Part shown: in pieces, positions 1 through 18,230 of the stretch
Numbering within the stretch: the first letter of the stretch is position 1
How the letters are laid out: each line of letters begins with the position of its first letter
Source: a virus
IMG/VR virus record: IMGVR_UViG_3300030020_000104
Coordinates: 1 to 24,082 of that record
DNA: 24,082 nt
Direction: 5' to 3' (one strand)
The notes under the pieces: model-generated
What the model saw: only the letters and a program-made list of their open reading frames with translations
The model's database searches: none
Told to the model about the DNA's origin: nothing
Made by a program: the position numbers and the translations under genes

Positions 1-483
1 TCCGACCGGCGCATGCGCGATGCTGGGCTCGGGCTTTACAAACAAGGGTCAACCGCGCCCACTCCGGTTGACGCCAAGCCAATCCCGGTTGACGCCAAGC
101 CAATCCCGGTTGACGCGCCGGATTTCGAGACCGACGCGCTCGGCGGCGTCGAAGAGTTCCTCGCGGATCTCAATTCCGGCAATTACCTCAGCCAGGTCGA
201 CGCGCAGCGCATAAAGGAAAACGTCCTCGCCGCGCGCCACCTGATGAGCCTGCGCAAAGAGGCCGGCGAGCTGGTCGACGTCGAACGCGCCGGCAAGCAG
301 TTCTTCAAACTTGCCCGCGACGCGCGCGATGCCTGGATCACCTGGCCCGCGCGCATCGGACCCATGCTCGCAGCGGATCTGCAGGTCGACATCGCCGTCG
401 TTGTCGAGGCCCTCAACCGCTATGTCCAGGAACAGCTCGAAAGGATCGGCGAGAAGGAACCCGATTTCAACGAGGAGTCATAA
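1..483 (+). CDS. Terminase small subunit, Nu1-like (5' partial)
   Basis: Putative small terminase subunit, which recognises phage DNA and hands it to the large subunit for packaging. The reading frame is open to the left edge of the window; the first ATG is at 13, has no Shine-Dalgarno sequence before it, and the N-terminal winged-helix expected in Nu1-like proteins is absent, so I read this as the C-terminal part of a gene that begins upstream. The visible part has a proline/valine-rich linker containing two copies of VDAKPIP (from a 21-bp DNA repeat) followed by a helical domain (residues about 50-150 from ATG 13) with the pattern LSQVDAQRIKENVLAARHL, then GELVDVERAGKQFFKLARDAR and WPARIGPMLAADL. 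That pattern is typical of the oligomerisation/large-subunit-binding half of Nu1-type proteins. The position directly before a GpA-type large subunit supports the call. The family assignment comes from pattern recognition, not a search. Confidence 0.75.
   Translation, partial: SDRRMRDAGLGLYKQGSTAPTPVDAKPIPVDAKPIPVDAPDFETDALGGVEEFLADLNSGNYLSQVDAQRIKENVLAARHLMSLRKEAGELVDVERAGKQFFKLARDARDAWITWPARIGPMLAADLQVDIAVVVEALNRYVQEQLERIGEKEPDFNEES
64..116 (+). repeat. 21-bp tandem repeat, 2.5 copies, in terminase small subunit
   Basis: The unit ccggttgacgccaagccaat plus c occurs perfectly at 64-84 and 85-105, with an 11-base third start at 106-116. The length is a multiple of three, so it extends a VDAKPIP linker without breaking the frame. 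It probably arose by slippage in a flexible hinge region. Confidence 0.9.
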
Positions 484-2554: not shown

Positions 2555-2580
2555 AATTCGCCAGAAAGACCGGAACGCGC

Positions 2581-2844
2581 ATGTCGCTCGATCACCCCTC
2601 AGTGTTTGCCGGGGTCGATCCCGGCACGCTGCAGACGTGGCTGAGCACGGCGCAGACCGCGCTGTTTCAGCTGCAATCGGGCGCGCTCATCGCCAACGCG
2701 TCGTACACACAGGGCGATGGCGCCAAATCGGTCTCGTATCGTCAGGTCGACATCGGCGCGCTCAACATTCTGATCCGCCAGTTGCAGCAGGAACTGGGCA
2801 TCGTGCGCCGCGCGCGCCGTCCGCTGCGGATATTCTTTCGATGA
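2581..2844 (+). CDS. Head-tail joining protein, gpW-like
   Basis: An 87-aa protein in the position of lambda W, between large terminase and portal. In lambda, gpW completes the DNA-filled head and provides the binding site for the next connector protein. The sequence has the family layout: an N-terminal helix (LQTWLSTAQTALFQLQSG), a short beta hairpin region (AKSVSYRQVDIG) and a C-terminal helix (ALNILIRQLQQELG) ending in a basic tail (RRARRPLR). Lambda gpW is 68 aa, so this is slightly longer. The ATG at 2581 has GGAA at 2572-2575. The stop overlaps the portal ATG as ATGA (2841-2844), which implies translational coupling. Sequence pattern and gene order agree. Confidence 0.85.
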   Translation: MSLDHPSVFAGVDPGTLQTWLSTAQTALFQLQSGALIANASYTQGDGAKSVSYRQVDIGALNILIRQLQQELGIVRRARRPLRIFFR

Positions 2845-4502
2845 GCGCGCCCGCCGTGCTCGGACCAAACGGCCAACCGATTGCATCGGGCACCATCCAG
2901 CGGATCCGCGAACGCGCGCGCGCACCACGCGGCGGCATGCGTGCGCTCAACGGCAACCAGCCCCAGTGGTTTGCGTATGATGCGCAGGACTGGACCAGCC
3001 CCGACACCGGCGACTGGCTGCCGCAAGTCAATTCGCCCGATCGCGAAATCAATCTCTACCGCGACCGGGTCACCGCCCGGGCACGCGATCTCTATCGCAA
3101 CGATGGCTGGGCAAAGGGCGCGGTCGGGCGCCTGCTCGATTCGACCATCGGCGGTCACCTGCACCTGGTGGCAAAACCCGATTACCGCGCGCTCGGCTTC
3201 GACATGGTCTGGGCGGAGGAATACCGCGCCGCGGTCGAAGGCCACTGGCGCAGCTGGTCGGTCGATATCCGCCGCTACAACGACGTCAGCCGCCGCCACA
3301 CGATGACGCAGATGTTCCGCATCGCGCTGGCGCACAAGCTGGTCGACGGCGAATCGCTGATCCTGTCGCACTGGCGCCAGGACCGCGTGCTGGCCGAAGG
3401 CGCGACGTTTGCCACCTGCTTTCAGGGTATCGATCCCGATCGGCTGTCGAATCCATACCAGATGGTCGACACCAAATATCTGCGCGGCGGGGTGGAGATC
3501 GACGACGACGACGTCGCGATCGCGTTCCACATCCGCAAGGCGCACCAGAACGACTGGTACAACGCGGTCGAGAGCATGCAGTGGGAACGCGTCGATCGCG
3601 AAGACCCCGATGGCTGGCAGCGCGTGTTCCACGATTTCGATCCGGACCGGTTTCAGCAGCACCGCGGCATGTCGATTTTCGCGCCCGTCCTGTCGCGCAT
3701 GAAAATGCTGGCGAAATACTACCAGGTCGAGCTGCAGGCGGCGACCGTCGCCAGCGCCTTCGGCCTCTACGTCACCAGCCCCTTCGATCAGGAAATGGTG
3801 CGCGAAGCGCTCGATGATCCAGACAGCGAGAAAGAAGCCTGGGGCTGGTACCAGGACATGCGCACCGATTTCCACCGCGACAGCGACTTGTCGCTGACCG
3901 GCGCCAAAGTCGCCACGCTTGCCCCCGGCGAGGAAGTCAAGGCCGTCACGGCGGAGCGGCCGAGCAGCGGATTTTCCCCGTTCACGCACGAAATGCTCCG
4001 CTCGATGGGGCAGGTCATGGGGCTGTCGGCCGAGCAGGCGCACAACGATTATTCGGAATCAAGCTGGTCGAGCGCGCGCGCCGGCATCGTCGAAGCCGAA
4101 AAGATGTTCAAGCGCCGCACGGCGGACTTCTATGCCAACACCACCACGCCGGTCTATGCCACCTGGCTTGAGGAACTGCACGATCGCAAGATGGTGCCGC
4201 TGCCCCGCAACGCACCGCCGTTCCGCGCCATGCGCACCGCCTATTCGCGCTGCCGCTGGCTGGGCGCCCCGCGTGGCTGGGTCGATCCGGTCGCAGAGCG
4301 CCAGGGCGCGGTGCTTGGCCTCGATGCCGGGTTCGATACGCTCGAAAACGTCTGCGCGACGCAAGGCAGCGATTGGGAAGAAAACCTCGATCAGCGCGCC
4401 CGCGAATATCAGCGGATGAAGGATCTCGGGCTGCCGCCGCCCGAATGGATCGGCGCCGAACAGACCGCCGCGCAAGTCTCGAAAAAGCCGGAGGCGCAAT
4501 GA
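2841..4502 (+). CDS. Portal protein, lambda gpB-like
   Basis: A 553-aa portal of the lambda gpB family (lambda gpB is 533 aa). The dodecameric portal forms the single DNA entry vertex, docks terminase, nucleates head assembly and later binds the tail connector. Characteristic stretches are the early region with NLYRDRVTARARDLYRNDGWAKGAV, the HKLVDGESLI motif, the CFQGIDPDRLSNP segment, the GVEIDDDDVAIAFHI strand region and the later MGLSAEQAHNDYSESSWSSAR helix, all typical of this family. An open frame extends far upstream inside the terminase gene, but the start at ATG 2841 is chosen because it sits in an ATGA overlap with gpW and gives the expected length. The end overlaps the next gene in the same ATGA manner (4499-4502). 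Confidence 0.93.
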   Translation: MSAPAVLGPNGQPIASGTIQRIRERARAPRGGMRALNGNQPQWFAYDAQDWTSPDTGDWLPQVNSPDREINLYRDRVTARARDLYRNDGWAKGAVGRLLDSTIGGHLHLVAKPDYRALGFDMVWAEEYRAAVEGHWRSWSVDIRRYNDVSRRHTMTQMFRIALAHKLVDGESLILSHWRQDRVLAEGATFATCFQGIDPDRLSNPYQMVDTKYLRGGVEIDDDDVAIAFHIRKAHQNDWYNAVESMQWERVDREDPDGWQRVFHDFDPDRFQQHRGMSIFAPVLSRMKMLAKYYQVELQAATVASAFGLYVTSPFDQEMVREALDDPDSEKEAWGWYQDMRTDFHRDSDLSLTGAKVATLAPGEEVKAVTAERPSSGFSPFTHEMLRSMGQVMGLSAEQAHNDYSESSWSSARAGIVEAEKMFKRRTADFYANTTTPVYATWLEELHDRKMVPLPRNAPPFRAMRTAYSRCRWLGAPRGWVDPVAERQGAVLGLDAGFDTLENVCATQGSDWEENLDQRAREYQRMKDLGLPPPEWIGAEQTAAQVSKKPEAQ

Positions 4503-4759
4503 TCCCGCAGTTTGTCACGGTCACGCTGTGGGGCGGCCGCGCCACCACCCGGATCAACGCACACCTGATCACGCGCATCAGTCCGGCCGCAGAGGGATCG
4601 GTGATCTACCTCGCCGGCGGCGACCCGCTCCGCGTCAACCACAGCGACGAGGAAGTCGAGGCGATGATTGCCGCGCTTGATCGCGACGTCAGGCTCGTGA
4701 CGCCGGTCGAAGTTCGCGCCGAGATCAATCCTCGCGCAGCCCGCAAGAAAGCTGCCTGA
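4499..4759 (+). CDS. Small FlbD-like phage protein of unknown function
   Basis: An 86-aa protein wedged between portal and protease, coupled to both by overlaps (ATGA at 4499-4502; TGATG at 4757-4761). Residues 4-60 follow the spacing of the flagellar FlbD/small barrel family: VTVTLWGGR, then INAHLITRI, SVIYLAGGDPLRV and EEVEAMIAAL. The C-terminal tail is Ala/Arg/Lys-rich. FlbD is a translational regulator of flagellar genes in some bacteria; what a copy in a phage head operon would do is unknown. Its place suggests a role in head assembly or in translation of the capsid genes, but that is inference. It could also be an unrelated small all-beta head protein that happens to share the pattern. 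Confidence 0.75.
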   Translation: MIPQFVTVTLWGGRATTRINAHLITRISPAAEGSVIYLAGGDPLRVNHSDEEVEAMIAALDRDVRLVTPVEVRAEINPRAARKKAA

Positions 4760-5607
4760 TGCACCAGTTTGCCGAGCTTTCGCAGCAGCTGTTCAACAAG
4801 CCGCTGATGATCCTGCCCAACAAGGCAGAGATCATCATGGCCAGCCTGTCCGAGCGCCTTGGGATTACGTCCATCGTGCGCGCGGGCAGCGACGACTTCA
4901 CCTGGCGCGAAGAGCCCGACGCGGGCTATCGCGGCTATGACACAGTGGCAAACATCGCCGTGATCGAAGTGCGCGGCACGCTCGTGCAGCGCACCAGAAC
5001 ATTGCGCCCCTACAGCGGCATGACCGGCTATGACGGCATCCGCCAAAACCTGCTCACCGCGCTGGCCGATCCCGACATCGACGCGATCGCGCTCGATATC
5101 GACAGCCCGGGCGGCGAAGTCGCCGGCTGTTTCGACCTGGTCGACACGATCTATCGCGCGCGCCAGGTCAAACCGATCTGGTCGATCCTCGGTGAAAACG
5201 CGTTCTCAGCCGCCTATGCGCTCGCCAGCGCAGCCGATGTCATCACCGTTCCGCGCACCGGCGGCACCGGCTCGATCGGCGTGATCGTCATGCATGTCAG
5301 CCTGCAGGAAGCGCTCAAAAAGCAGGGCATCGAGGTGACGCTGATCACCAAGGGCGATCTGAAGGGCGAAGGCTCTGAAATGTTCAACCTGACCGATGAC
5401 GCCTTTGCCCGCATCAAAGCCGACGTCGAAGAAGTCGGCGATCTGTTCGACCGCACGGTCGCGCGCAATCGCGGGCTGCCGCGCAAAAAGGTCTTCGACA
5501 CGCAGGCCGGTACATACCTCGGTGCCGCCGGCGTCGAATATGGCCTGGCCGATGCGGTCATGGCCCCCGACGAGGCCTTCCGCGCGCTGATCGACAGCCT
5601 CGACTGA
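4759..5607 (+). CDS. Prohead protease, S49 family (lambda gpC-like)
   Basis: A 282-aa serine protease of the S49 (SppA/protease IV) family, used by lambda-like phages as gpC to mature the prohead. Visible motifs: IALDIDSPGGEV (S116 region, substrate strand), the nucleophile segment ENAFSAAYALASAAD with S150 as probable catalytic serine, the TGGTGSIGVI motif, and ITKGDLKGEG with K198 as probable general base. The Ser-Lys spacing of about 50 residues resembles the single-domain SppA enzymes. Lambda gpC is about 440 aa because its C-terminal third is the Nu3 scaffold; here the protein ends soon after the protease domain and a separate gene at 5705 appears to carry the scaffold part. The start overlaps the preceding stop by one base (TGATG). 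A later in-frame ATG at 4807 is possible but less well placed. Confidence 0.92.
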   Translation: MHQFAELSQQLFNKPLMILPNKAEIIMASLSERLGITSIVRAGSDDFTWREEPDAGYRGYDTVANIAVIEVRGTLVQRTRTLRPYSGMTGYDGIRQNLLTALADPDIDAIALDIDSPGGEVAGCFDLVDTIYRARQVKPIWSILGENAFSAAYALASAADVITVPRTGGTGSIGVIVMHVSLQEALKKQGIEVTLITKGDLKGEGSEMFNLTDDAFARIKADVEEVGDLFDRTVARNRGLPRKKVFDTQAGTYLGAAGVEYGLADAVMAPDEAFRALIDSLD

Positions 5608-5612
5608 CACCA

Positions 5613-5692
5613 AACCCCCGGTGCCTCCGCACCAAATCCCCCCGGCGCGGAGCGCCATACTCCCCCCCCCCGGCGCGGAGCGCCATACTCCC
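5613..5692 (+). repeat. Intergenic block of three small hairpins including a perfect 27-bp direct repeat
   Basis: Between protease and scaffold lie three consecutive stem-loops: GGTGC-CTCC-GCACC (5620-5633), GGCGC-GGA-GCGCC (5644-5656) and GGCGC-GGA-GCGCC (5672-5684). The last two sit in a perfect 27-base repeat (5638-5664 and 5666-5692, period 28). The first is a diverged relative with the same C-run before it. No T-tract follows, so they are not ordinary terminators; a role in mRNA stability or in limiting ribosome access to the gene at 5705 is possible. Confidence 0.85.
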
Positions 5693-5704
5693 AAGGAAAG
5701 CTGC

Positions 5705-6439
5705 ATGACCAAACCCGGTTTCTTGGCGGGTTCGTCCCGCTTTGCCCACCTCGCCGGCCTGGGCCGCGCTCGCCGCGCTGCGGATGCCAACGACGAAGGC
5801 GAAGAATACGGCAACCGCAAGGACGGCCGTAAAGCCGAAGACGATGACGACGACGACGGTCGCGGCGACAAGGACAAGGACAAAGCCCGCAAGTCGAAAG
5901 CCGCCGACGACGATGACAGCGGTGACGACGACGGCGCCCGCAAGGGCCGCAAGTCGAAAGCCGCCGATGACGACGATGACGGCGACGACGATCGCAAGGG
6001 CCGGAAGGCAAAAGCCGCCGACGACGATGACGACGACGACGATCGCAAGGCCCGCAAGGCCAGGCGCGCCGAAGACGACGATGGCGATGATGACGACGAC
6101 GAAGAACGCGAAATGAACGGCCGCAACGCCGTCGCCTCGGCCCGTCGCCGCGAACGCCGCCGCTGCTGCGCGATCCTCGAGGCCGCCGCCGATGCCATGG
6201 GCAACCCCGCGCTGCTCGAAAGCGCGCTGACCCAGATGGAAAGCACCCACGGCACCGGTTACGCCGTGCGTCGTGTCGAACGCGCCGCGCGCGCCGCCGA
6301 AAACAGCGACCGTTCGGAATCGCGCACCCGTCGCAATCCGCAAGTCGGCAGCGACGGCCCGCCGCCGCGCGGCGGTGCGGCAGAGGCCGGCAAAGGCTGG
6401 GCCGCTGCCATCGCCAAAGTCGTCAATCCGAAAGGCTGA
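5705..6439 (+). CDS. Putative capsid scaffold, poly-acidic repeat protein
   Basis: A 244-aa, extremely charged protein in the position of the lambda Nu3 scaffold, between protease and decoration protein. Residues 1-35 are a basic N-terminus with several Arg; residues about 36-140 alternate basic clusters (RKGRKSKAA) with runs of Asp (up to eight in a row), in three approximate repeats of 18-20 aa; residues about 145-200 form a helical segment (AILEAAADAMGNPALLESALTQ) resembling the C-terminal helical part of S49 protease/scaffold proteins of other lambda-like phages; the end is Gly/Arg-rich. Start ATG 5705 has AAGGAAAG at 5693-5700. Scaffold function is inferred from position, charge and the C-terminal helix; a nucleic-acid-like acidic internal protein is the alternative. 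An intrinsic terminator follows at once (6462-6493). Confidence 0.7.
   Translation: MTKPGFLAGSSRFAHLAGLGRARRAADANDEGEEYGNRKDGRKAEDDDDDDGRGDKDKDKARKSKAADDDDSGDDDGARKGRKSKAADDDDDGDDDRKGRKAKAADDDDDDDDRKARKARRAEDDDGDDDDDEEREMNGRNAVASARRRERRRCCAILEAAADAMGNPALLESALTQMESTHGTGYAVRRVERAARAAENSDRSESRTRRNPQVGSDGPPPRGGAAEAGKGWAAAIAKVVNPKG
5888..6055 (+). repeat. Tandem 54-60 bp coding repeats (basic-acidic modules)
   Basis: Three copies starting at 5888, 5948 and 6002, each coding RK(S/A)KAA followed by an Asp-rich run broken by a Gly or Ser. All spacings are multiples of three. The pattern explains long spurious open frames on the opposite strand and in the other forward frame. Confidence 0.85.
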
Positions 6440-6461
6440 ACGACCTCACCTCCATCCCTTC

Positions 6462-6493
6462 AAGGCGCGCGCTCCCGAGCGGCGCCTTTTTTT
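6462..6493 (+). terminator. Intrinsic terminator after the scaffold gene
   Basis: AAGGCGC pairs with GCGCCTT and, after one bulged G, CGCTC pairs with GAGCG, giving a 12-bp GC-rich stem with a two-base loop followed by an unbroken T run (6487-6493). It lies 22 bases after the scaffold stop and ends 16 bases before the decoration gene ATG. Confidence 0.85.
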
Positions 6494-6509
6494 GTGAAAG
6501 ATCAGAGCA

Positions 6510-7169
6510 ATGGGCAATCCCACTGTCACCCCGATCACCGAAGCCTGGCACGCCGGTGGATTTATCATCCAGGAGCCAAGCAACGGCATGTACACCCGCG
6601 CGTCGATCACGCTGAAGAGCGGTTTCGGCGTGCTGCTGGCCGGCACCGTGCTCGGCGCGTTCCTGACCGGCACCGCCGCCGCCACCGCGCTCGGCACCAA
6701 CACCGGCAACGGCACCTTTGGCGCGATCACCGTCGGCGGCGCAGCCGCCACCGGCAATTACGTCGTCGAATTCGACAGCGCGACGCAGTTCATCGTTTCC
6801 GCCCCCAACGGTCAGGAAATCGGCCACGGGACAACGGGAACGGCGTTCAGTGCCGGCGGCATCGGTTTCACCATCACCGCCGGCGGCACGGCGTTTGCGC
6901 CGGGCGACAGCTTCAACGTCGCTGTCACCGGCACGCTGCAATATGCGCCGTTCGACCCGACCGCGACCAACGGCCTGCAGAACGCCGTCGCCATCCTGTG
7001 GAGCGGCCGCCGCGATACGACGTCGGCCGCACAAGTCGCCGTGGCCGTCGTGCGCGGCCCGATCCGCGTGAATGTCGGCGAACTGGTTTGGGGTGCCAAC
7101 GTCACCACCACGCCGCAGCAGACCGCCGCGCTGGCTGCCCTGACCGCGCTGGGCATCCTGTCCAGCTGA
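6510..7169 (+). CDS. Head decoration protein, lambda gpD-like with inserted domain
   Basis: A 219-aa capsid-stabilising protein of the lambda gpD (HDPD) family. gpD trimers clamp the expanded shell of major capsid protein. The N-terminal part shows the family pattern (AWHAGGFIIQEPSNGMYTR, then ITLKSGFGVLLAGTVLG), and the C-terminal part the strand YAPFDPTATNGLQNAVAILW with VAVVRGPIRVN. Lambda gpD is 110 aa; the doubling here comes from a Gly/Thr-rich insert at residues about 55-145 (GNGTFGAITVGGAAATGNYVV, GTAFSAGGIGFTITAGG, FAPGDSFNVAV) that looks like a small all-beta surface domain, a known variation among phage decoration proteins. Start ATG 6510 has only a weak purine stretch before it. 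The gene is bounded on both sides by intrinsic terminators. Confidence 0.88.
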   Translation: MGNPTVTPITEAWHAGGFIIQEPSNGMYTRASITLKSGFGVLLAGTVLGAFLTGTAAATALGTNTGNGTFGAITVGGAAATGNYVVEFDSATQFIVSAPNGQEIGHGTTGTAFSAGGIGFTITAGGTAFAPGDSFNVAVTGTLQYAPFDPTATNGLQNAVAILWSGRRDTTSAAQVAVAVVRGPIRVNVGELVWGANVTTTPQQTAALAALTALGILSS

Positions 7170-7214
7170 TCTCCATCACCCGATACGCCCCCTCGGCCTT
7201 GGGCAAGCCGCACG

Positions 7215-7245
7215 AACGCTCGCCAGCGATGGCGGGCGTTTTTTT
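7215..7245 (+). terminator. Intrinsic terminator between decoration and capsid genes
   Basis: AACGCTCGCC (7215-7224) pairs with GGCGGGCGTT (7231-7240), one G-U pair, six-base loop, followed by a seven-T tract (7239-7245). It lies 46 bases after the decoration stop and ends 18 bases before the capsid ATG. Confidence 0.85.
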
Positions 7246-7263
7246 GTTTGGACGGAGCCCCCA

Positions 7264-8304
7264 ATGGTCTCGCTGAATATCTTCAATCAGGATCCGTTTT
7301 CGACGTTCGAGCTGACCGCCGCCGTCGAGCGCATCCCCCACAATCCCCAAATTCTTGGCGATATGGGCATTTTCGAACCGTTCCCGATCCGCACCACCGC
7401 GCTCGGTATCGAAGAGCGCACCGGCGTGCTCAACCTGATCAAGACATCGCAGCGCGGCGCGCCGCCGTCGACCGATCGCACCACCGAACAGCGCAAGATG
7501 CGCTACTTCGACACCGTGCGCATCAGCCACGATGACACCATTTTCGCCAGCGAACTGCAGAACATCCGCGCATTCGGCACCGAAACCGAGCTGATGCAGG
7601 TCCAGGCCGAAGTCGCACGCCGCCTGGCCGGCCCGACCGGGCTGATCCCGCGCATCCAGTACACCTGGGAAAACATGCGACTGGGCGCGATCCAGGGCAT
7701 CCTGACCGATGCCGATGGCAGCACGCTGTACAACTGGTTCGACGAATTCCAGATCAGCCAGCCCGCCGAGCAGGTGTTCAATCTGGCCGCACAAGTCGTC
7801 GGCTCGCTGCGCCCGCTGTGCAACACGGTCGTGCGCGGCATGCGCCGTGCGGCAAAGGGCGCGTTCCTGCCCGCCACGCAGATCATCGCGCTGTGCGGCG
7901 ATACGTTCTGGGATGACTTCATCGTCCACCCCGACGTCGTCGAAACCTACAAGAACTGGGTCGAAGCCGCCGAACTGCGCGGCGACTGGGCTTTCGGCAC
8001 GTTCTATTTCGGCGGCATCACCTGGATCAACTATCGCGGTTCGGATGACGCCAGCACGATCGCCGTCGCCACCAACAAGGTGAAGTTCTTCCCCAAAGGC
8101 GCACCCGGCATTTTCCGCCAGGTCATGGCGCCGGGCGAAGCCTTCGAATGGGTCAACACCCCCGGCAAGGAATACTATGTGATCCCGATCCCCGATCGTG
8201 AACGCAACACCTTCTGGCGCATGGAGGCGTACAGCTACCCGCTGTTCATCTGCACCCGCCCCGAAGTGCTGTGGTCCGGTACCGCCGATTCTACGGCGGA
8301 CTGA
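7264..8304 (+). CDS. Major capsid protein, lambda gpE-like
   Basis: A 346-aa shell protein of the lambda gpE family (gpE is 341 aa), HK97 fold by family knowledge. Recognisable stretches: NIFNQDPFSTFELTAAVERI at the start, GIFEPFPIRTTALGIEERTG, the RKMRYFDTVRISHDDTIFASELQNIR region, LGAIQGILTDADGSTLYNW, the FWDDFIVHPDVVETYKNW segment and the C-terminal APGEAFEWVNTPGKEYYVIP, EAYSYPLFICTRPEVL. Start ATG 7264 has GGAG at 7254-7257. It follows the decoration gene behind a terminator and is itself followed by strong hairpins, so it may be transcribed partly from read-through or have its own promoter, which I could not identify with confidence. Confidence 0.95.
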   Translation: MVSLNIFNQDPFSTFELTAAVERIPHNPQILGDMGIFEPFPIRTTALGIEERTGVLNLIKTSQRGAPPSTDRTTEQRKMRYFDTVRISHDDTIFASELQNIRAFGTETELMQVQAEVARRLAGPTGLIPRIQYTWENMRLGAIQGILTDADGSTLYNWFDEFQISQPAEQVFNLAAQVVGSLRPLCNTVVRGMRRAAKGAFLPATQIIALCGDTFWDDFIVHPDVVETYKNWVEAAELRGDWAFGTFYFGGITWINYRGSDDASTIAVATNKVKFFPKGAPGIFRQVMAPGEAFEWVNTPGKEYYVIPIPDRERNTFWRMEAYSYPLFICTRPEVLWSGTADSTAD

Positions 8305-9608: not shown

Positions 9609-11129
9609 ATGACCGTTCCCTTCAACACCACCCCGACGAACCTGCGCGTGCCGCTGTTCTATGCCGAACTCGATCCGAGCCGCGCCAACACCGAACCGCA
9701 GTCGCAGCGCACGCTGCTGATCGCGCAGATGTACGGCGCCGGCACCTGGACGCCGAATCTGCCGGTGCGCGTGCCGTCGCCGGCGGCGGCGATCACGGGC
9801 GCGGGCTATGGCTCGATCATGGCCGCCATGGCGGCGATGTACATGCTCAACGACCCGTCGGCCGACGTGCATGCCCTGCCGGTCAGCGATGCGGGCGGCG
9901 CCACGGCGGCGACCGACACGATCACCTTTACCGGCCCGGCCACGGCGGCCGGCACGCTCGCGCTCTATATCGCCGGCGTGCTGGTGCCCGTCGCGGTGTC
10001 GGTGGGCGATACGGCCACCACGATCGCCACCAACACCGTCGCGGCCATCACCGCCTCGACCGGTCAGGCAGTTTCGACGATGGCCAACTGCGGCCTGCCC
10101 GTCACAGCCGCCAGTGCCGCCGGCGTCGTTACGCTGACCGCCGTCAACAAAGGGCTGTGCGGCAACGATATCGATGTGCGCATCAACTATCGCGGCACGG
10201 CCGCCGGCGAAGTCACTCCCGCGGGCGTCGGCGTGGCGATCGCCACGCCGCAGTGCAGCGGCGGCGCGACCAACCCGACGATCACGACCGCGCTGGCGAA
10301 CCTGGCTGACCAGGCGTTCGATTTCATCGTCGTTGCCGCCACCGATTCCGCCACGCTCAACGCGCTCCAGGCGTGGCTGTCCGATGCCACCGGCCGCTGG
10401 AGCCCGCTGCAGCAGATCTATGGCGGCGTGTTCGCGGCCATGCGCGGCAGTGCCGGCGCGCTGGCCACCGCCGGCGCCACGCGCAACGACCAGCACCTTG
10501 AACTGTATGGGTTTTACGACAGCCCGTCGCCGGTCTGGGCATGGGCCGCCTATATGGCCGCGCTGCAGGCCGCATCGCTGCGCAACGATCCGGCACAGCC
10601 GGTGCAGTTTCTCAGCGGCCAGGGCCTGCTGGCGCCGCCGGTGCAGTCGCGCTTTCCGCTGACGGTGCGCAACACCACGCTGCTCTACAGCGGAATCAGC
10701 ACGTTCACCGTCAATGCCAACGGCAATGTCGTGATCGAAAACGCCATCACGACGTACATCACCAACGCCCAGGGCACGCCCGACAACAGCTATCTCGAAA
10801 TCGAGACGCTCTACACGCTGATCTATGTCATCCGCGCGCTGAAGAGCGTGGTCACGACCAAGTATGCGCGGGTGAAGCTGGCGGCGGATGGCACGCGCCT
10901 GTCGCCCAACAGCAACGTCGTGACGCCGTCCACCATCAAGGCCGACATCATCGCCGCCTACATCGCGCTCGAGCTGGCCGGCTTCGTCCAGCAAAGCGAT
11001 GTCTTTGCGCAGAACCTGATCGTCGAAAAGGACGCGACCAACCCCAACCGCGTCAACGTGCTGTGGCCCGGCATCCTCATCGATCAGCTGCGCGTCTTCG
11101 CCACGCTGATCCAGTTCCGCCTCCAGTAA
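9609..11129 (+). CDS. Contractile tail sheath protein, Mu gpL-like
   Basis: A 506-aa tail sheath subunit (Mu gpL is about 495 aa). The sheath surrounds the tube and contracts on infection. The N-terminal segment (LRVPLFYAELDPSRAN, QRTLLIAQMYGAGT) and the middle region ending GNDIDVRINYRG are typical of the Mu family. The conserved C-terminal half has FDFIVVAATDSATLNALQAWL, the NDQHLELYGFYDSPSPVWAW segment, LLYSGISTFTVNANGNVVIENAI, YLEIETLYTLIYVIRALKS and DVFAQNLIVEKDATNPNRVNVLWP, which form the conserved attachment domain. Start ATG 9609 has GGAG at 9596-9599. It marks the switch from the lambda-type head to a Mu-type tail. Confidence 0.95.
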   Translation: MTVPFNTTPTNLRVPLFYAELDPSRANTEPQSQRTLLIAQMYGAGTWTPNLPVRVPSPAAAITGAGYGSIMAAMAAMYMLNDPSADVHALPVSDAGGATAATDTITFTGPATAAGTLALYIAGVLVPVAVSVGDTATTIATNTVAAITASTGQAVSTMANCGLPVTAASAAGVVTLTAVNKGLCGNDIDVRINYRGTAAGEVTPAGVGVAIATPQCSGGATNPTITTALANLADQAFDFIVVAATDSATLNALQAWLSDATGRWSPLQQIYGGVFAAMRGSAGALATAGATRNDQHLELYGFYDSPSPVWAWAAYMAALQAASLRNDPAQPVQFLSGQGLLAPPVQSRFPLTVRNTTLLYSGISTFTVNANGNVVIENAITTYITNAQGTPDNSYLEIETLYTLIYVIRALKSVVTTKYARVKLAADGTRLSPNSNVVTPSTIKADIIAAYIALELAGFVQQSDVFAQNLIVEKDATNPNRVNVLWPGILIDQLRVFATLIQFRLQ

Positions 11130-11141
11130 GGACCCCTCATC

Positions 11142-11501
11142 ATGTCAGCACTTGCTGGAACCCTCACGCTCACGATCGACGGCGTGGCGTATGCCGTGTC
11201 GGGATCGTGCAACTATCTGGTCAGCAGCACCGAACGCGAAACCCTCAAGGGGCAGGACGGCGTTCACGGCTACAAGGAAATGCCGAAGGAAGGCTGGATC
11301 AGTTTCCACGGCCGCGACAGCGGCGCGGTATCGATGGGCACGCTCAATGCCGCCAACGGCGTGACCGTCGTTGCCACGCTGATCAACGGCAAGACGATCA
11401 TCGCCACCAACGCCTGGCGCGATGGCGACCCGGCCGAGGTCAACACCGAGGACGGGACTTTCGACATCAAGTTTTCGGCCGCCAGTGTGACGGAGAACTG
11501 A
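11142..11501 (+). CDS. Tail tube protein, Mu gpM-like
   Basis: A 119-aa tube subunit of the Mu gpM family, which stacks in rings to make the inner tail tube. The family signature is plain: LTIDGVAYAVSGSCNYLVSS, RETLKGQDGVHGYKEMPKEGWI, VVATLINGKTIIATNAWRDGD and VNTEDGTFDIKF. Start ATG 11142 has AAGGA at 11128-11132, overlapping the sheath stop. It lies 12 bases after the sheath gene and one base before the chaperone gene. Confidence 0.94.
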   Translation: MSALAGTLTLTIDGVAYAVSGSCNYLVSSTERETLKGQDGVHGYKEMPKEGWISFHGRDSGAVSMGTLNAANGVTVVATLINGKTIIATNAWRDGDPAEVNTEDGTFDIKFSAASVTEN

Positions 11502-11502
11502 G

Positions 11503-11769
11503 ATGGCTGGCGAGGATCAGGTCGAGGTCACGACCGAGCTGACCATCACACTCAAAAATCCGGTCACGCTGGGCGATCTGTCCTATTCGGAACTGCGCCT
11601 GCGCGAACCGACAGGGGCGGAGATGATCGCGGTCGATGGGAAAAAGGGCTGGGCGCTCGATATCGCGCTGATCGCGCTGGTCGCAGGCGTCCCCGAGCCC
11701 GCCGTCATCAAGATCGGCGGCGGCGACCTGATGCGCGCGCGAAAGTTCATCGACCATTTTTTCGAATAA
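11503..11769 (+). CDS. Tail assembly chaperone, Mu gp41-like (short product)
   Basis: An 88-aa chaperone of the Mu gp41 family, the normal, in-frame product. It has the family pattern ELTITLKNPVTLGDLSYSELRLREPTGAEM followed by two helices (LDIALIALVAGV and LMRARKFIDHFFE). Such proteins coat the tape measure before tube assembly. Start ATG 11503 has GGAGA at 11492-11496. The stop (TAA, 11767-11769) lies directly after a slippery heptamer, so a fraction of ribosomes should make a longer form. Confidence 0.92.
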   Translation: MAGEDQVEVTTELTITLKNPVTLGDLSYSELRLREPTGAEMIAVDGKKGWALDIALIALVAGVPEPAVIKIGGGDLMRARKFIDHFFE

Positions 11770-11894
11770 GGCCGGCGGACTGGCGGTCACGCCTGGTCGC
11801 ATTGGGCCGCATGTTCGGCAAATTCCCCGACGAGGTCGCAACCCGGCCATGGTCGGTCCTGAACGCATGGTGGGATGCCGCGCATGAGCGATGA
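11503..11894 (+). CDS. Tail assembly chaperone, long -1 frameshift product (gp41-gp42 type)
   Basis: The predicted slippage product joins 11503-11763 to 11763-11894 for a 130-aa protein. The heptamer T-TTT-TTC (11757-11763) is in the exact X-XXY-YYZ phase of the chaperone frame. After a -1 shift the frame stays open for 43 codons (RIRPADWRSRLVALGRMF, then GKFPDEVATRPW and NAWWDAAHER) and ends at TGA 11892-11894, overlapping the tape-measure start. This extension has no start of its own with a Shine-Dalgarno sequence, is compositionally helical, and has the Trp-rich end seen in the second half of P2 E+E' and comparable tail chaperones. Frameshifting at this gene pair is well established for lambda G/GT, P2 and Mu; for this phage it is inferred from sequence. 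Confidence 0.85.
11757..11763 (+). promoter_or_regulatory. Programmed -1 frameshift slippery heptamer T-TTT-TTC
   Basis: Six T and one C aligned with codons CAT-TTT-TTC-GAA-TAA of the chaperone gene. Both tRNAs can re-pair after a one-base backward slip (TTT to TTT, TTC to TTT). The zero-frame stop is one codon away. Only a small hairpin (GGCG-GTCA-CGCC) is evident downstream as a possible stimulator. Confidence 0.85.
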
Positions 11895-13476
11895 AATCGC
11901 CAAAGTCGGCATTGGCATCACGGCGGACGATCAGACCAAGAGCGGTATCAAGGCCGCTGAAAACCGCCTCGACCAGATGGCGAAGCGCACGCGCAGCAAG
12001 TTCGAAAAATCGGACCAGTCGCGCGATGCATCGTTCCGCCGCAGCACATCGCGGATCGTCGGCAGCTTTTCCAAGATCGAGCAGGCCAGCGCGCGCGCCT
12101 TTGGCGGATCCTCGCTGACCGCCGGCATCGCAGGCCGAATGCAGGGTGTCGGCAACGCCGCCTCGATCATGGGTGACGCACTGGGCAGCGCAGCCAGCGA
12201 AGGCGGCGGCCTGGCGCGCGCGATGGGCATGGTCGGTGTCGCAGCGGCGGGCACGATCGCGGTCGTTGCGGCCGCGGGCTATGCCGCATTCAGCCTGGCC
12301 AACGATTGGGCCAAAGGCGCGGCGGCGATCGGGCGCACTGCCGATACGATCGGCGTGTCGACCAAGACACTGCAGAACTTCACCAACGCGGCCGCGCGCA
12401 TGGATATCGATCCGGGCGCCGCAGCCGGTGGCCTGGGCGGCCTGTCGCAAACGCTCAATGACGCACGGTATGGCAACAACCCGGGGGCGATGGCGGTGCT
12501 GTCGCGGCTCGGTATCAAGCTCAACCTCAAAAAAGACGGCACCGTCAACACCGATGCGATGCTGCCGGTGATCGCCGACAAATTCGCCCGACAGACCAGC
12601 GCTGGCAAGCGCCTGATGGCATCGCAACTGGGCATCTCGCCGGCGTTGATCCCGCTGCTGAGCATGGGCGGCAAGGCCCTGACCGCCGAAATGGCCGACG
12701 CGCAGAAAAATGCGCCGTTCGAGACCGGCGACAATATCAAGTCGGCACAGCATGTCCGCAGCGATATCGTGAAAATCGGCCAGAAGGCGGACCAGGCCAA
12801 AGCATGGGCCGGGCGCAACCTTGCGATCGAGGGCGACAAAGCCGCGCATGGCGTCGCCGATACAATTGGCAACGCGGCCAAAACCATGCGCGACGCCGGG
12901 CAGGGCATGCAGCAGGGATCGAGCGACTTCGACAAGGCAGTGCGCTCGTTCGCCGCGACCATGGGTTATCTCTACACCGGCCGAAATTACGGGTCGCCAG
13001 CCACAGGCGACAACAGTTTTGACGCGCGTATCGAGCGTGCTGAAAACTCTCGTCAGGACCAGACCAGCCCAAAGGGCGCGCACGGCGTGCGGCAGTTGAT
13101 GCCTGACATGGCGCGCCGAATTGCCTCCTCGATGGGCCAGCCCTTTGACGAGGGCCGGTACCAGAACGACGAAACCTATCAGCGCCTGCTGGGCGATTAC
13201 TACGACGATCAGCTCGCCAAAAAGTACAAAGGCGACGAAACGCTGATGGCCGCCGCGTACAACGCGGGTGAAGGCAATGTCGACAAGTGGATTCGGCAGT
13301 TCGGTGATCCCCGAACAGGGCGCACCACCGACGCGGCTTTTGCCGGGCATATCCCGTTCAAGGAAACCCGCGATTACGTCCACAAAGTCGTGGTCGAATT
13401 CAAGAACGCGCCGCCTGGCACGGCCGCCATGGTGCACAGCCCCGGCGGCGCCGTCAGCTACGGCATCGTGCACTGA
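11884..13476 (+). CDS. Tape measure protein with C-terminal lytic transglycosylase domain
   Basis: A 530-aa tail tape measure protein, which sets tail length and is released into the cell envelope. Residues 1-110 are helical and polar (GIKAAENRLDQMAKRTRSKF); residues about 114-138 are a hydrophobic Ala/Val/Gly segment that could span a membrane; the middle is helical. Residues about 380-510 form an SLT-type transglycosylase domain: RAENS with E387 as the likely catalytic acid, SPKGAHGVRQLMPDMARR, the AAYNAGEGNVDKW motif and PFKETRDYV. This would cut peptidoglycan during DNA entry. The protein is short for a tape measure, implying a short tail. ATG 11884 is preferred over ATG 11875 since the chaperone extension ends at 11894 and family members start close to SDEIAKV. 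Confidence 0.9.
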   Translation: MSDEIAKVGIGITADDQTKSGIKAAENRLDQMAKRTRSKFEKSDQSRDASFRRSTSRIVGSFSKIEQASARAFGGSSLTAGIAGRMQGVGNAASIMGDALGSAASEGGGLARAMGMVGVAAAGTIAVVAAAGYAAFSLANDWAKGAAAIGRTADTIGVSTKTLQNFTNAAARMDIDPGAAAGGLGGLSQTLNDARYGNNPGAMAVLSRLGIKLNLKKDGTVNTDAMLPVIADKFARQTSAGKRLMASQLGISPALIPLLSMGGKALTAEMADAQKNAPFETGDNIKSAQHVRSDIVKIGQKADQAKAWAGRNLAIEGDKAAHGVADTIGNAAKTMRDAGQGMQQGSSDFDKAVRSFAATMGYLYTGRNYGSPATGDNSFDARIERAENSRQDQTSPKGAHGVRQLMPDMARRIASSMGQPFDEGRYQNDETYQRLLGDYYDDQLAKKYKGDETLMAAAYNAGEGNVDKWIRQFGDPRTGRTTDAAFAGHIPFKETRDYVHKVVVEFKNAPPGTAAMVHSPGGAVSYGIVH

Positions 13477-13489
13477 TCGCACGGCGATC
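13475..13489 (+). other. Small hairpin at the tape-measure stop codon
   Basis: GATCGC-ACG-GCGATC, six paired bases with a three-base loop, overlaps the TGA of the tape measure and is followed by a weak T-rich stretch (tagtcttt). It may be a weak terminator or chance. Confidence 0.35.
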
Positions 13490-13516
13490 TAGTCTTTCAA
13501 AACTCGGGAAACCCCC

Positions 13517-14947
13517 ATGTCATTGATCCCTGACCTTGCGAGCATCGCGCAAGGGCAGATCGCTGGCGTGGGAAAACCGGCGGTAAATCCGAACAAGGTG
13601 CAGCCCGCGTCCTGGCGCGGTGTGCAATTCGCCGTGCTGTCGAGCTCGGGCGGCGGCACGCAGCGTCTGGCCAAGCACCGCTATCCCGGCAAGGATGGCG
13701 GGTGGCCCGAACCGATGGGTGCCGATCTCGGCGTCTATCGCCTGCGCGGTTTTGTCCTCGATGGCGACATCAAGCTTGGCGGCGCGGCGATCGCCATGCA
13801 GCGGTCGCAGCTGCTCAAGGCGTGTTTGCAGAAGGGATCGGGGACGCTCGCGCACCCGACGCTGGGCAACCTGACGGTCGTGCTCGATCGCTGGAACATC
13901 TCGGAGGCGCTCGATGCTTCGCGCTATTCCGAGGTCGAGCTCGAATTCACCGATGCCGGGACACAGACCTTTCCGACGGTCACCACGACCAAGTCGGGCA
14001 GTGCGAGTGCGGCCTCGAAATTGCAGACCGCGCTGCTGTCCGACGCGGTCAATGTGATCGGCAAACTGGCCAGCGGCCAGTCGATATCGGCCCTGTCGCT
14101 GCTCGGCATGGGAACGGGCATCCTCGGGCTGGCCGGGGTGCGTGCCGATCTGGTGGCGACGATCGCCGGGTGGGCTGGCAAGGCGATCGTGCTGGCACGG
14201 GATGCCACGTCGCTGTTGCGGCTGACGGCGGTGCTGCCCGGCAATTACGGGCGCTTTGCGGCGGGCGGCAATGCCGGACTGACCGGCATCAATGCCAGCG
14301 TCTATGCGGCCAGCACGACGGTTGACGATCTGATATCGGCGGCATCGACGCAACGGGTTGCCGTGGCGGAGGCGGCGAGCGCGTTCGAAGCCGCCGCAAC
14401 CAATACCGACCTCGCCAATCCGGTCGACCTGCAGCCCGCTGCAAGCGCGTTGATGGCCGCGCTCGTCGCCAGTTGTGCGGATCCGGCCGATGCGATCCGG
14501 CTGCTGTTGCAACTGATGGCCGCGACAATCGACGGATTGCAGACCCAGACCGTCTATGTCGCGTCGCAACTGGTGCTGCGCGCAGCAGCTGCGGCGCTTT
14601 GCCAGGCATCGGCGAACTATCAGCCCGCCAGCGCCAACGACGCCGCCGCGCGCATCGCGCAGATCTGCCCGGTGCTCGATGCGCTGTCGCTGACCGCCTC
14701 GGCGATGGGCGACGATGACAGTTACAACACGCTGGCGGCCTGCAGGGGCACGGTGGCAACAGATCTGCGCACGCGTGGCGCCACACTTGCCCAGGTGACG
14801 ACCTTTGACCGTGCCGCACCACTGCCGGCGCTCGCACTGGCGCAATCGCTCTATGGTGATCCGACGCGCGCCGACCAGCTCGTCGCACAGGCCGCCCCGA
14901 TCAATCCGCTATTCTTTCCAACTTCATTCCAGGCGCTGGCCTCGTGA
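13517..14947 (+). CDS. Mu gpN-like DNA circularisation / baseplate protein
   Basis: A 476-aa protein of the Mu N family (Mu gpN about 490 aa), described as a DNA circularisation protein and located at the baseplate-tape measure junction. Its N-terminal 150 residues carry the family domain: SWRGVQFAVLSSSGGGTQRL, HRYPGKDGGWPEPMG, YRLRGFVLDGD, KGSGTLAHPTLGNLTVVLDRW and SEVELEFTDAGTQTFP. The rest (about 160-476) is Ala-rich and helical with poor conservation, as usual. Start ATG 13517 lies behind a GGGAAA-like stretch. The stop overlaps the next gene in GTGA (14944-14947). Confidence 0.88.
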   Translation: MSLIPDLASIAQGQIAGVGKPAVNPNKVQPASWRGVQFAVLSSSGGGTQRLAKHRYPGKDGGWPEPMGADLGVYRLRGFVLDGDIKLGGAAIAMQRSQLLKACLQKGSGTLAHPTLGNLTVVLDRWNISEALDASRYSEVELEFTDAGTQTFPTVTTTKSGSASAASKLQTALLSDAVNVIGKLASGQSISALSLLGMGTGILGLAGVRADLVATIAGWAGKAIVLARDATSLLRLTAVLPGNYGRFAAGGNAGLTGINASVYAASTTVDDLISAASTQRVAVAEAASAFEAAATNTDLANPVDLQPAASALMAALVASCADPADAIRLLLQLMAATIDGLQTQTVYVASQLVLRAAAAALCQASANYQPASANDAAARIAQICPVLDALSLTASAMGDDDSYNTLAACRGTVATDLRTRGATLAQVTTFDRAAPLPALALAQSLYGDPTRADQLVAQAAPINPLFFPTSFQALAS

Positions 14948-16083
14948 CTGCGATGTCCAGCACGAGCACGCCGTCGACCTCCGCCACTGGCGGTCAGATT
15001 GTCGTCAGCGGCACACCGAAGGCTCCGGACGATCTGACGCTGCTGGTCGGGGGCGCCGTCATCGCCGTGTGGAAGCAGGTCACGGTCACGCTGCGCCTTG
15101 AGGGGTTTCCCAACAGCTTTGAAGTGAAGGCATCGGCCAGCACAAGCGGCCAGGCACCCGTAGCGCCCGGTGACGATTGCGTGGTGAAGCTGGGCAACGA
15201 CACGGTCATCACCGGGTGGGTCGATCGGGTGGTGGAATCGGTTACGCCCGATGCCCACGAAATCACGATCGCCGGGCGCGGATTGACACAGGACCTGGTC
15301 GACTGCGCAGCCGAATGGCCTTCGGCCGAGCTGATCGGCGGCAACGCGCTCACGATCTCGACAAACCTGGCATCGGCTTACGGCATTGACGTCATCATGG
15401 ACAACGGTGCCAGCCCGGGCCCGGACGTAGTGTCGTGGGCGCTCAATTATGGCGAGACGGGCGCCGATATCATCCAGCGCGTCGCCCGCAACGCCGGGCT
15501 GCTCGCCTATGAAAATGCGCGCGGCCAGCTCGTTCTGGCGGAAGTCGGCACGGCCACGGCCGCCAGCGGCATCGTCTATGGCCAGAATGTCGAAGCGTGC
15601 AGCGTCCAGCAGTCGATGGACCAGCGCTATTCGGACTATGTCGGGTGCTTTCTCGCGCTCGACAGCTATGGCGCGCTGGGCGCCGGCAGCGACTTCTTTT
15701 TCGGCGCGACCGATCCCAACGTAACGCGCCACCGCGTGATGCACCTGATCATGGAGGCGGTCGCCGCCAACGCGCAGGATTTCACCGAGAGCCGTGCGAA
15801 CTGGGAGGCGGCGCGCAGGGCCGGGCGATCGTTCGTGGTGCGCGCCACGGTTGACAGCTGGCGCGACAGCGGCGGCACGCTGTGGCTGCCCAATACGCTG
15901 GTTTCGATCGATGTGCCTGGCTGTGTGTCCGCACAAGTCGGCGCGCTGATTATTTCCGAAGTCACCTTCAAACGCGACGATGACAACGGCACGACGGCCG
16001 AGATTGTTGCAATGACGCCGGCGGCATTCCAGCCCGAGCCGATCGTACTGACGCCGGTCAACACAAAGGCACTCACGACATGA
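14944..16083 (+). CDS. Baseplate hub protein, Mu gp44 (gpP)-like
   Basis: A 379-aa hub protein, the same length as Mu gp44, structurally related by family knowledge to T4 gp27 and P2 gpD. It forms the trimeric ring that caps the tail tube and holds the spike. Visible features are TLRLEGFPNSFEVKASAS, the loop DDCVVKLGNDTVITGWVDRV, ITIAGRGLTQDLVDCAAEW, ISTNLASAYGIDV, the ADIIQRVARNAGLLAYENARGQLVL region and the LWLPNTLVSIDVPGC segment near the end. GTG 14944 is chosen because it makes a GTGA coupling with gpN; ATG 14953 is a near alternative. The end couples to the spike gene as ATGA (16080-16083). Confidence 0.9.
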   Translation: MTAMSSTSTPSTSATGGQIVVSGTPKAPDDLTLLVGGAVIAVWKQVTVTLRLEGFPNSFEVKASASTSGQAPVAPGDDCVVKLGNDTVITGWVDRVVESVTPDAHEITIAGRGLTQDLVDCAAEWPSAELIGGNALTISTNLASAYGIDVIMDNGASPGPDVVSWALNYGETGADIIQRVARNAGLLAYENARGQLVLAEVGTATAASGIVYGQNVEACSVQQSMDQRYSDYVGCFLALDSYGALGAGSDFFFGATDPNVTRHRVMHLIMEAVAANAQDFTESRANWEAARRAGRSFVVRATVDSWRDSGGTLWLPNTLVSIDVPGCVSAQVGALIISEVTFKRDDDNGTTAEIVAMTPAAFQPEPIVLTPVNTKALTT

Positions 16084-16625
16084 ATCAGATATTGGCCAAC
16101 CTTGTCGGTGCGGGCAGCGTGACCGGCGCGGATGACACCGGCCCGGTGCAGACGCTGCAGATCACCGAACGCGCCAGCGGCAGCGGCTTTGCCGACCGCG
16201 TGCTCGACAAGGTTCTGCGCTTTTTCCAGTTCGGGTTTACCAGCGTGCCGCCACTCGATTCCGAGACGCTGACCTTGCGGCGCGGCGGCGAGCGAGGGCT
16301 GACGATCGTGATCGGCACCAACCACCGGCCGAGCCGCCCGACAGGGCTGCAGCCGGGCGATTCAGCGCAATACGATGCGCGTGGGGCGATCATCAAACTG
16401 ACCGCGGCGGGCCTGACGATCGACTGCGCGGGCCTGCCGTACGTGATTCAGAATACCAGCGGCGTGAATATCAAGGGCGACCTGGTGGTCGATGGCGAGA
16501 TTACCGGGCTCAACACCAGCAGTGCGCTGACGATGAGCGCGATCCGCAGCTTTGCCAACAGCCATGACCATTCGGGCGTCAGCACCGGCACAGGCAATTC
16601 GGGCCACGCGACGACGACTTTGTGA
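16080..16625 (+). CDS. Baseplate spike protein, Mu gp45-like
   Basis: A 181-aa central spike protein of the Mu gp45 / P2 gpV type. Trimers make the membrane-piercing needle. The N-terminal half holds the OB-fold-like region (VQTLQITERASG, GFTSVPPLDSETLTLRRGG), the middle has the repeated beta-helix-like strands (KLTAAGLTIDCAG, GVNIKGDLVVDGEI), and the tip shows HDH at residues 162-164 followed by H176. An HxH motif binding iron at the apex is known for these spikes. Coupled to gp44 by ATGA; 13 bases separate it from gp46. Confidence 0.92.
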   Translation: MNQILANLVGAGSVTGADDTGPVQTLQITERASGSGFADRVLDKVLRFFQFGFTSVPPLDSETLTLRRGGERGLTIVIGTNHRPSRPTGLQPGDSAQYDARGAIIKLTAAGLTIDCAGLPYVIQNTSGVNIKGDLVVDGEITGLNTSSALTMSAIRSFANSHDHSGVSTGTGNSGHATTTL

Positions 16626-16638
16626 GTGATTTTGGCCC

Positions 16639-17094
16639 ATGACCGATATCCAGACCGGGTGGAATTTTGCCACTGGTCATGCCGACTGGGTGTTTCTGCC
16701 CGGCAACGACGCGGCCGATCCGACCAACCAGCTCAGTTTCGGCAACGACCTGGCCACGGCGGTCATCATCAGCCTGTTTACCGATGCGCAGGCCGGGCCC
16801 GACGATACGATCCCCGACAACACGAGCGACCCGCGCGGGTGGTGGGGTGGGCCGATCGGGTCGCGGATCTGGCTTTATGCCGATCGCGGCAAGGCGACGC
16901 CCGATCTGCCGGGGCAGGTGCAGCAGGCCGCGGCCGAGGCCCTGCAATGGATGATCGATGATGGCGTGGCGACGTCGATCGACACCGCAGCCGCCTATTT
17001 CGGCGCCGGACAGATGATGCTGACCGTGACCGTGCATCGCGGCAACGGGTCGCAGCTCGCGCTGCAATTCGCAAACTTGTGGGATAGCCCGTAA
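16639..17094 (+). CDS. Baseplate wedge protein, Mu gp46-like
   Basis: A 151-aa protein of the Mu gp46 family, the counterpart of P2 gpW / T4 gp25 that anchors the sheath to the baseplate. Key segments: NDLATAVIISLFTDAQAG, the DPRGWWGGPIGSRIWLYADRGK signature, and AAAEALQWMIDDGVATSI followed by LTVTVHRGNGSQLALQF. Start ATG 16639 lies after a weak GGCCC region, with no strong Shine-Dalgarno sequence. The stop TAA shares one base with the next ATG (TAATG, 17092-17096). Confidence 0.92.
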   Translation: MTDIQTGWNFATGHADWVFLPGNDAADPTNQLSFGNDLATAVIISLFTDAQAGPDDTIPDNTSDPRGWWGGPIGSRIWLYADRGKATPDLPGQVQQAAAEALQWMIDDGVATSIDTAAAYFGAGQMMLTVTVHRGNGSQLALQFANLWDSP

Positions 17095-18230
17095 TGCCGT
17101 TTCCGCGTCCCAACATCGCCGCGCTGCGCCTGTCGGCATCGCGGGCGATCGCGGCGGCTTTGCCCGGCGTCGACACGCTGCTGCGCTATTCAAACCTGGG
17201 CATCACCGGCGACGTCCAGGCGGGGCTGGCAGACGGCCTCTATGGCTATCAGGACTACATCGCGCAGCAGAGCGTGCCGTTTACCGCGACCGATGAATAC
17301 CTGGCCGGGTGGGCGGCCCTGCGCCAGGTCTATATCAAGGATGCGGCGGTCGCGTCGGGAACGGTTGCGTTTCCCTGGACAAGCGGCGCGATCGCCACCG
17401 GCACCGGCATCACGCGCAGCGACGGCGCGGCCTATGTGACCACCGGGGCGGGTACGACCGGCGGCGGCCTTATCACCGTGCCCGTAACGGCCGTCATGCC
17501 CGGCGCGGCGGGCAACACCGTGGCCGGCACGATGATGTTCCTGTCGATCGGGATCAGCGGCATCACGCCCCAGGGCGCGGTGGCGGCCGCGATCGCCGGC
17601 GGCGCCGACATCGAGACGCAGGACGATTTCAAAAGCCGCATGCTGCAGGCCTATCAGGCGCAGCTGCAGGGCGGCGCGGTGGCCGATTATGTCAACTGGG
17701 CGGGGCAGGTGCCGGGGGTGACCCGCGCCTGGTGCGTGCCGCGCGGATATGGCCCCGGCACGGTGCAGGTCTATTTCATGATGGACGTGGTCGAGGCGGC
17801 CTATGGCGGGTTTCCGCAGGGGTCGAACGGCCTGGCTGCGGCCGACACGCGCGATGTGGCCGCGACCGGCGATCAGCTCGTCGTGGCCAATTACCTCTGG
17901 ACGGTGCAGCCGGTCTGCCCGCGCGTCTATGCGCTCGCGCCCACGCCGAACACGGTCACCATGACGATCGCGGGCATCAGCGGCGCATCGGGCACGGTCA
18001 AGACCAATATCGCGGCGGCGTTCGCCGGCGCGCTGCTCAGCGATGCAGCGCCCGGCGGCACGACCGATGTCGGCACGATCGAGGCGGCGATCGCGGCCGT
18101 CGCCGGCGCAGCCGGTTTTGTGATTACCCTGATCAGCGCATCGGCGGGCACCGTGACGCCCGGCAGCGCGGGCAACATCGTCTCCAATGCGGGCGCGCTG
18201 GCCGTGGCCGGCACGATCACATATATCTGA
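17094..18230 (+). CDS. Baseplate J-like protein, Mu gp47-like
   Basis: A 378-aa baseplate protein of the Mu gp47 / P2 gpJ family (T4 gp6 counterpart), part of the wedge that senses binding and triggers contraction. Visible pattern: NLGITGDVQAGLADGLYGY, FTATDEYLAGWAALRQVY at residues 60-80, a Gly/Thr-rich beta domain (about 90-165) ending ISGITPQGAV, then IETQDDFKSRMLQAYQ, GAVADYVNWAGQVPGVTRAW and the strand GTVQVYFMMD. The last 100 residues contain the usual alternating Val/Ala strands. One-base overlaps at both ends (TAATG; TGATG at 18228-18232) indicate a tightly coupled gp46-gp47-gp48 block. Confidence 0.92.
   Translation: MPFPRPNIAALRLSASRAIAAALPGVDTLLRYSNLGITGDVQAGLADGLYGYQDYIAQQSVPFTATDEYLAGWAALRQVYIKDAAVASGTVAFPWTSGAIATGTGITRSDGAAYVTTGAGTTGGGLITVPVTAVMPGAAGNTVAGTMMFLSIGISGITPQGAVAAAIAGGADIETQDDFKSRMLQAYQAQLQGGAVADYVNWAGQVPGVTRAWCVPRGYGPGTVQVYFMMDVVEAAYGGFPQGSNGLAAADTRDVAATGDQLVVANYLWTVQPVCPRVYALAPTPNTVTMTIAGISGASGTVKTNIAAAFAGALLSDAAPGGTTDVGTIEAAIAAVAGAAGFVITLISASAGTVTPGSAGNIVSNAGALAVAGTITYI

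Follow-up and report, generated by a model that had tools for sequence, protein, structure and literature searches.

Does a ribosome that reaches the end of the tail assembly chaperone gene in this phage always stop there, or does it sometimes shift frame and read on into the 114 nt (11770-11883) that separate the chaperone stop from the tape-measure start? The stretch of DNA analyzed here, which we call the window, comes from IMG/VR and is a viral fragment of 24 kb (24,082 nt in full), and an earlier note on it had proposed that a slippery heptamer lying in the correct phase one codon ahead of the chaperone stop, followed by a 43-codon -1 frame that fills this gap and runs over the tape-measure start, leads to a 130-aa fusion. 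The coordinates, phase, length and gap of this site all check out on re-reading of the sequence (Table 1). Taken with the comparisons described below, they indicate that programmed -1 ribosomal frameshifting very probably yields the 130-aa chaperone fusion (a probability of about 0.94), the ribosomal shift itself being what we infer from these sequences.

The slippery site and its setting

The window is chimeric: its head genes (311-8304) are of lambda type, and the contractile tail module that follows them (9609-18230) is of Mu type. The head module encodes a gpA terminase, a lambda-family portal, an S49 protease, a gpD-type decoration protein and a gpE-type capsid protein; the frame 5621-6255, immediately before the gene for this decoration protein, contains long Asp runs and repeated (R)KGRKxKAADDDDD units. 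The tail module encodes sheath, tube, chaperone, tape measure, DNA_circ_N, GpP-like, gp45-like and baseplate J proteins, and the chaperone gene has the PF10618 tube gene before it and the tape-measure gene after it. The chaperone product matches the Pfam family named 'E, or 41 or 14' (E=5.3e-11; 42.8 bits, with a cut-off of 25) and belongs to phrog_166. The tape-measure protein is short (530 aa) and its SLT transglycosylase domain is C-terminal.

Table 1. Features at the chaperone/tape-measure junction of the window.
Feature	Position	Strand	Support or remarks
Tail tube protein	11142..11501	+	PF10618, Pfam E=6.4e-30; phrog_185
0-frame tail assembly chaperone, 88 aa	11503..11769	+	Phage_TAC_7; PF10109, phrog_166
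Slippery heptamer T TTT TTC, in phase, one codon ahead of the 0-frame stop	11757..11763	+	Kept in L010 and L011
-1 frame extension, 43 codons + TGA (11892-11894)	11763..11894	+	dN/dS 0.15-0.22 in the -1 frame only; RPxDW conserved
Putative frameshift fusion product, 130 aa (87 chaperone residues + 43)	11503..11894	+	Predicted from sequence
Tape-measure protein with SLT transglycosylase domain	11884..13476	+	Pfam SLT 2.5e-9; phrog_2276 tail length tape measure

The chaperone ORF begins with ATG at 11503 and its 3' end reads CAT TTT TTC GAA TAA, with the TAA at 11767-11769, such that the first T of T TTT TTC falls at a third codon position, the phase that an X XXY YYZ site needs. The 43-codon extension translates as RIRPADWRSRLVALGRMFGKFPDEVATRPWSVLNAWWDAAHER, and its end overlaps the tape-measure gene by 11 nt with the tape-measure start set at the ATG at 11884; a further in-frame ATG at 11875 is absent from the homologue in L011. 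Searched on its own against Pfam and PHROGs, the extension gives nothing meaningful, the Zn-ribbon match at E=0.05 being under its cut-off.

Heptamers of this kind are rare in the window. Among 4860 codon positions of its genes (a count that omits the portal gene), the in-phase T6 heptamer occurs only at 11757, and an in-phase XXXYYYZ of any kind at 13, three of which have a slippery-type make-up. The open frame is a different matter, since about 50% of Markov-1 resamplings of this region (65% GC) leave a frame of 43 codons without a stop, much as expected if a heptamer and an open frame had come to lie side by side by chance in a GC-rich genome. By itself the frame is thus uninformative, and comparison has to carry the case.

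Conservation and selection beyond the heptamer

Two viral contigs (L002 and L003) are nearly identical to the window. The prophage L004/L010 from Novosphingobium sp. FSW06-99, with 80% identity, and a contig binned as Methylovirgula (a MAG, L011), with 68% identity, both retain CAT TTT TTC GA[AC] T[AG]A GGCCG together with the 43-codon extension. When the window, L010 and L011 are compared mutually, the -1 frame gives dN/dS of 0.22, 0.15 and 0.17 after the heptamer, against 1.2-2.4 for the remaining two frames, and substitutions fall at -1-frame third positions in 11/19, 19/34 and 17/30 cases for the three pairs. The frame test is valid because the chaperone, used as a control, gives low values in its 0 frame (0.26 and 0.17) and values above 1 in the -1 frame (1.9 and 1.5). 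The comparison is decisive: judged by these substitution patterns, the extension is evolving as a protein solely in the -1 frame.

A rival reading takes the extension for a separate small gene, re-initiated at its own start, for which a TTG at 11802 and an ATG at 11811 are available in frame. Neither has a convincing Shine-Dalgarno sequence by eye; in L031 both starts are absent from that place, and the TTG is also missing from L010. The most conserved part of the extension, an RPxDW motif found at its start in the nearer relatives, lies upstream of both, and selection spans the frame from the heptamer onward. We regard separate initiation as very unlikely, because the candidate starts are unconserved and lie downstream of RPxDW.

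A search of about 1180 alphaproteobacterial genomes plus viral contigs yielded 36 usable chaperone loci, a set that takes in the window and some duplicates from one genome, and from which one fragment (L042) was left out. In 34 of the 36, an XXXYYYZ lies in phase no more than 30 codons from the 0-frame stop, with a -1 extension after it, in most cases of 42-65 codons. The heptamers are mostly TTTTTTN or GGGTTTT and in most loci occupy a homologous place, at a conserved F-[FL] or G-F that ends the chaperone domain; the assignment is less sure in a few distant loci (L043, L052, L056 and L059). The same combination is present in all six named phage records (Wolbachia WO twice, phiKM1, phiAP1, BZS1 and phiNP), one of the Wolbachia WO records being annotated with gpG and gpGT ORFs, and a site-pattern search of viral contigs returned nothing beyond relatives already known, save for L073, whose site region is nearly identical to that of L031. 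One extension, of 32 codons in L025, is probably damaged: this locus (reverse strand, about 1740-1835 as oriented) has T TTT TTG, and its extension comes to a stop with a dissimilar end, possibly because the prophage is decaying or the sequence contains an error.

Heptamer and open -1 frame, whose conservation the earlier note had put forward as a check, are thus jointly conserved, with protein-level selection in the -1 frame only; loss of the heptamer together with stops in the extension frame, named beforehand as what would speak against the proposal, was looked for in approximately 40 relatives and not found. For 34 of 36 loci at 8% each, the binomial odds are near 1e-35 if relatedness is ignored. 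We consider chance excluded because of this joint conservation across loci and the selection, with dN/dS below 1, that is confined to the -1 frame.

The same loci bear on RNA polymerase slippage, by which transcripts with an altered T run would arise and the fusion would be read from the slipped mRNA. There is a run of six T at 11757-11762 on which this could occur, although six is short for bacterial transcriptional slippage, and several relatives have a codon-phased GGGTTTT and no long homopolymer. Strict codon phasing, moreover, is a requirement of the ribosome, not of RNA polymerase. Because the T's are so few and GGGTTTT serves in several relatives, transcriptional slippage is disfavored, and we hold it to be just as improbable as separate initiation.

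Two prophages of a single Sphingomonadaceae genome, L027 (reverse strand, around the 0-frame stop) and L032 (1730-1890), depart from the pattern of programmed -1 frameshifting at a canonical heptamer. At the homologous position they read CGT TTC TTC TA[AG], so that T TTC TTC stands where no canonical heptamer is present and the 0-frame stop follows directly. The spacing from site to extension equals that in L025, and the extension is open, with pN/pS of about 0.25 as against about 3 in other frames. We tentatively suggest, as a possibility on the less probable side, that these represent a sub-lineage with a selected -1 extension in which the canonical heptamer has been replaced by a non-canonical recoding site, T TTC TTC plus the stop. 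If this is so, T TTC TTC, through P-site tRNA-Phe slippage or with assistance from the stop, would serve in place of the X XXY YYZ of the window. A published Mu-like phage without a recognizable site is KS10 (PMC2628397).

Stimulatory elements and comparison with P2, lambda and Mu

The sequence downstream of the window site folds no better than shuffles (z = 0.3), and across 25 loci no family-wide stimulatory structure emerges relative to synonymous resampling (mean z -0.36). Neither individual folds nor an alignment of four DNA sequences nor the 25-locus test, all confined to pseudoknot-free structures, reveals a conserved hairpin 5-9 nt downstream; a perfect GCCGCC/GGCGGC hairpin is present in L011 and L031 only. 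No upstream Shine-Dalgarno-like stimulator is obvious by eye. The site is therefore simple, as the earlier note had described it, no stimulatory structure being supported. The other half of that description, that it is lambda-like, does not hold, the heptamer being of the P2 T6 type (T TTT TTG in P2; PMC3091744).

The resemblance to P2 E/E+E' is close. Both systems lie between the tube and tape-measure genes, both chaperones carry the same Pfam family name, both use a T6 heptamer and a -1 shift, and in both the extension ends about 10 nt inside the tape-measure gene; the P2 record has an annotated frameshift with the same layout, in which the E+E' stop overlaps T. The extensions are similar in size (43 aa in the window and about 51 aa in P2), the likeness to E' being one of length. 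In P2 the heptamer TTTTTTG gives E of 91 aa and E+E' of 142 aa (PMC3091744). The systems differ in the last base of the heptamer, C in the window and G in P2, and in the position of the 0-frame stop, which follows one codon after the heptamer in the window and several codons after it in P2. A hairpin is predicted neither in P2 nor in its Burkholderia relatives (PMC3091744), and the two systems are alike in this respect too.

Lambda gpG/gpGT is likewise a chaperone with a -1 extension ahead of the tape-measure gene, but it differs from the window in chaperone sequence, heptamer and siphovirus tail. The crucial ratio of its two products is about 30:1, and P2 frameshifts 2- to 3-fold more efficiently than lambda (PMC5009743). 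Mu shares with the window a Mu-like tail module and the order of its genes, with gp41 lying between gp40/M (tube) and gp42 (tape measure), yet its gp41 frameshift is -2 (PMC5009743) and we found no XXXYYYZ at the end of Mu gp41, whereas the window has a canonical heptamer and a -1 extension. Of the precedents cited earlier, Mu does not use a -1 shift; nor is 'gp42-like' a suitable name for the extension, as Mu gp42 is the tape measure.

Proposed mechanism and implications

We propose that the two Phe tRNAs, with TTT in the P site and TTC in the A site, would slip together on T TTT TTC, with a minority of ribosomes, probably a few to about 20%, re-pairing one base back at TTT TTT. The slipped ribosomes would bypass the TAA and append 43 residues, and the 130-aa fusion would be produced alongside an abundant 88-aa chaperone. 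By analogy with lambda gpG/gpGT and P2 E/E+E', we expect that the 88-aa form would coat the tape measure and that the extension would bring in subunits of the tail tube. The mechanism itself is established in other phages (PMC5009743, PMC3091744).

On the strength of these sequence comparisons, the site is almost certainly an instance of the widely conserved gpG/gpGT (P2 E/E+E') tail-assembly frameshift, and an ordinary further example of a well-known class, tail-chaperone frameshifts being already known in most long-tailed phages. It provides a clean example with evidence of selection, in a phage that combines a lambda-type head with a Mu-type tail. Gene callers split or miss such extensions, and a joined CDS is the proper annotation. 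For the wider family, these loci show that the Mu-like tails of alphaproteobacterial phages mostly carry a simple P2-type heptamer for a -1 shift, and not the -2 shift of Mu.
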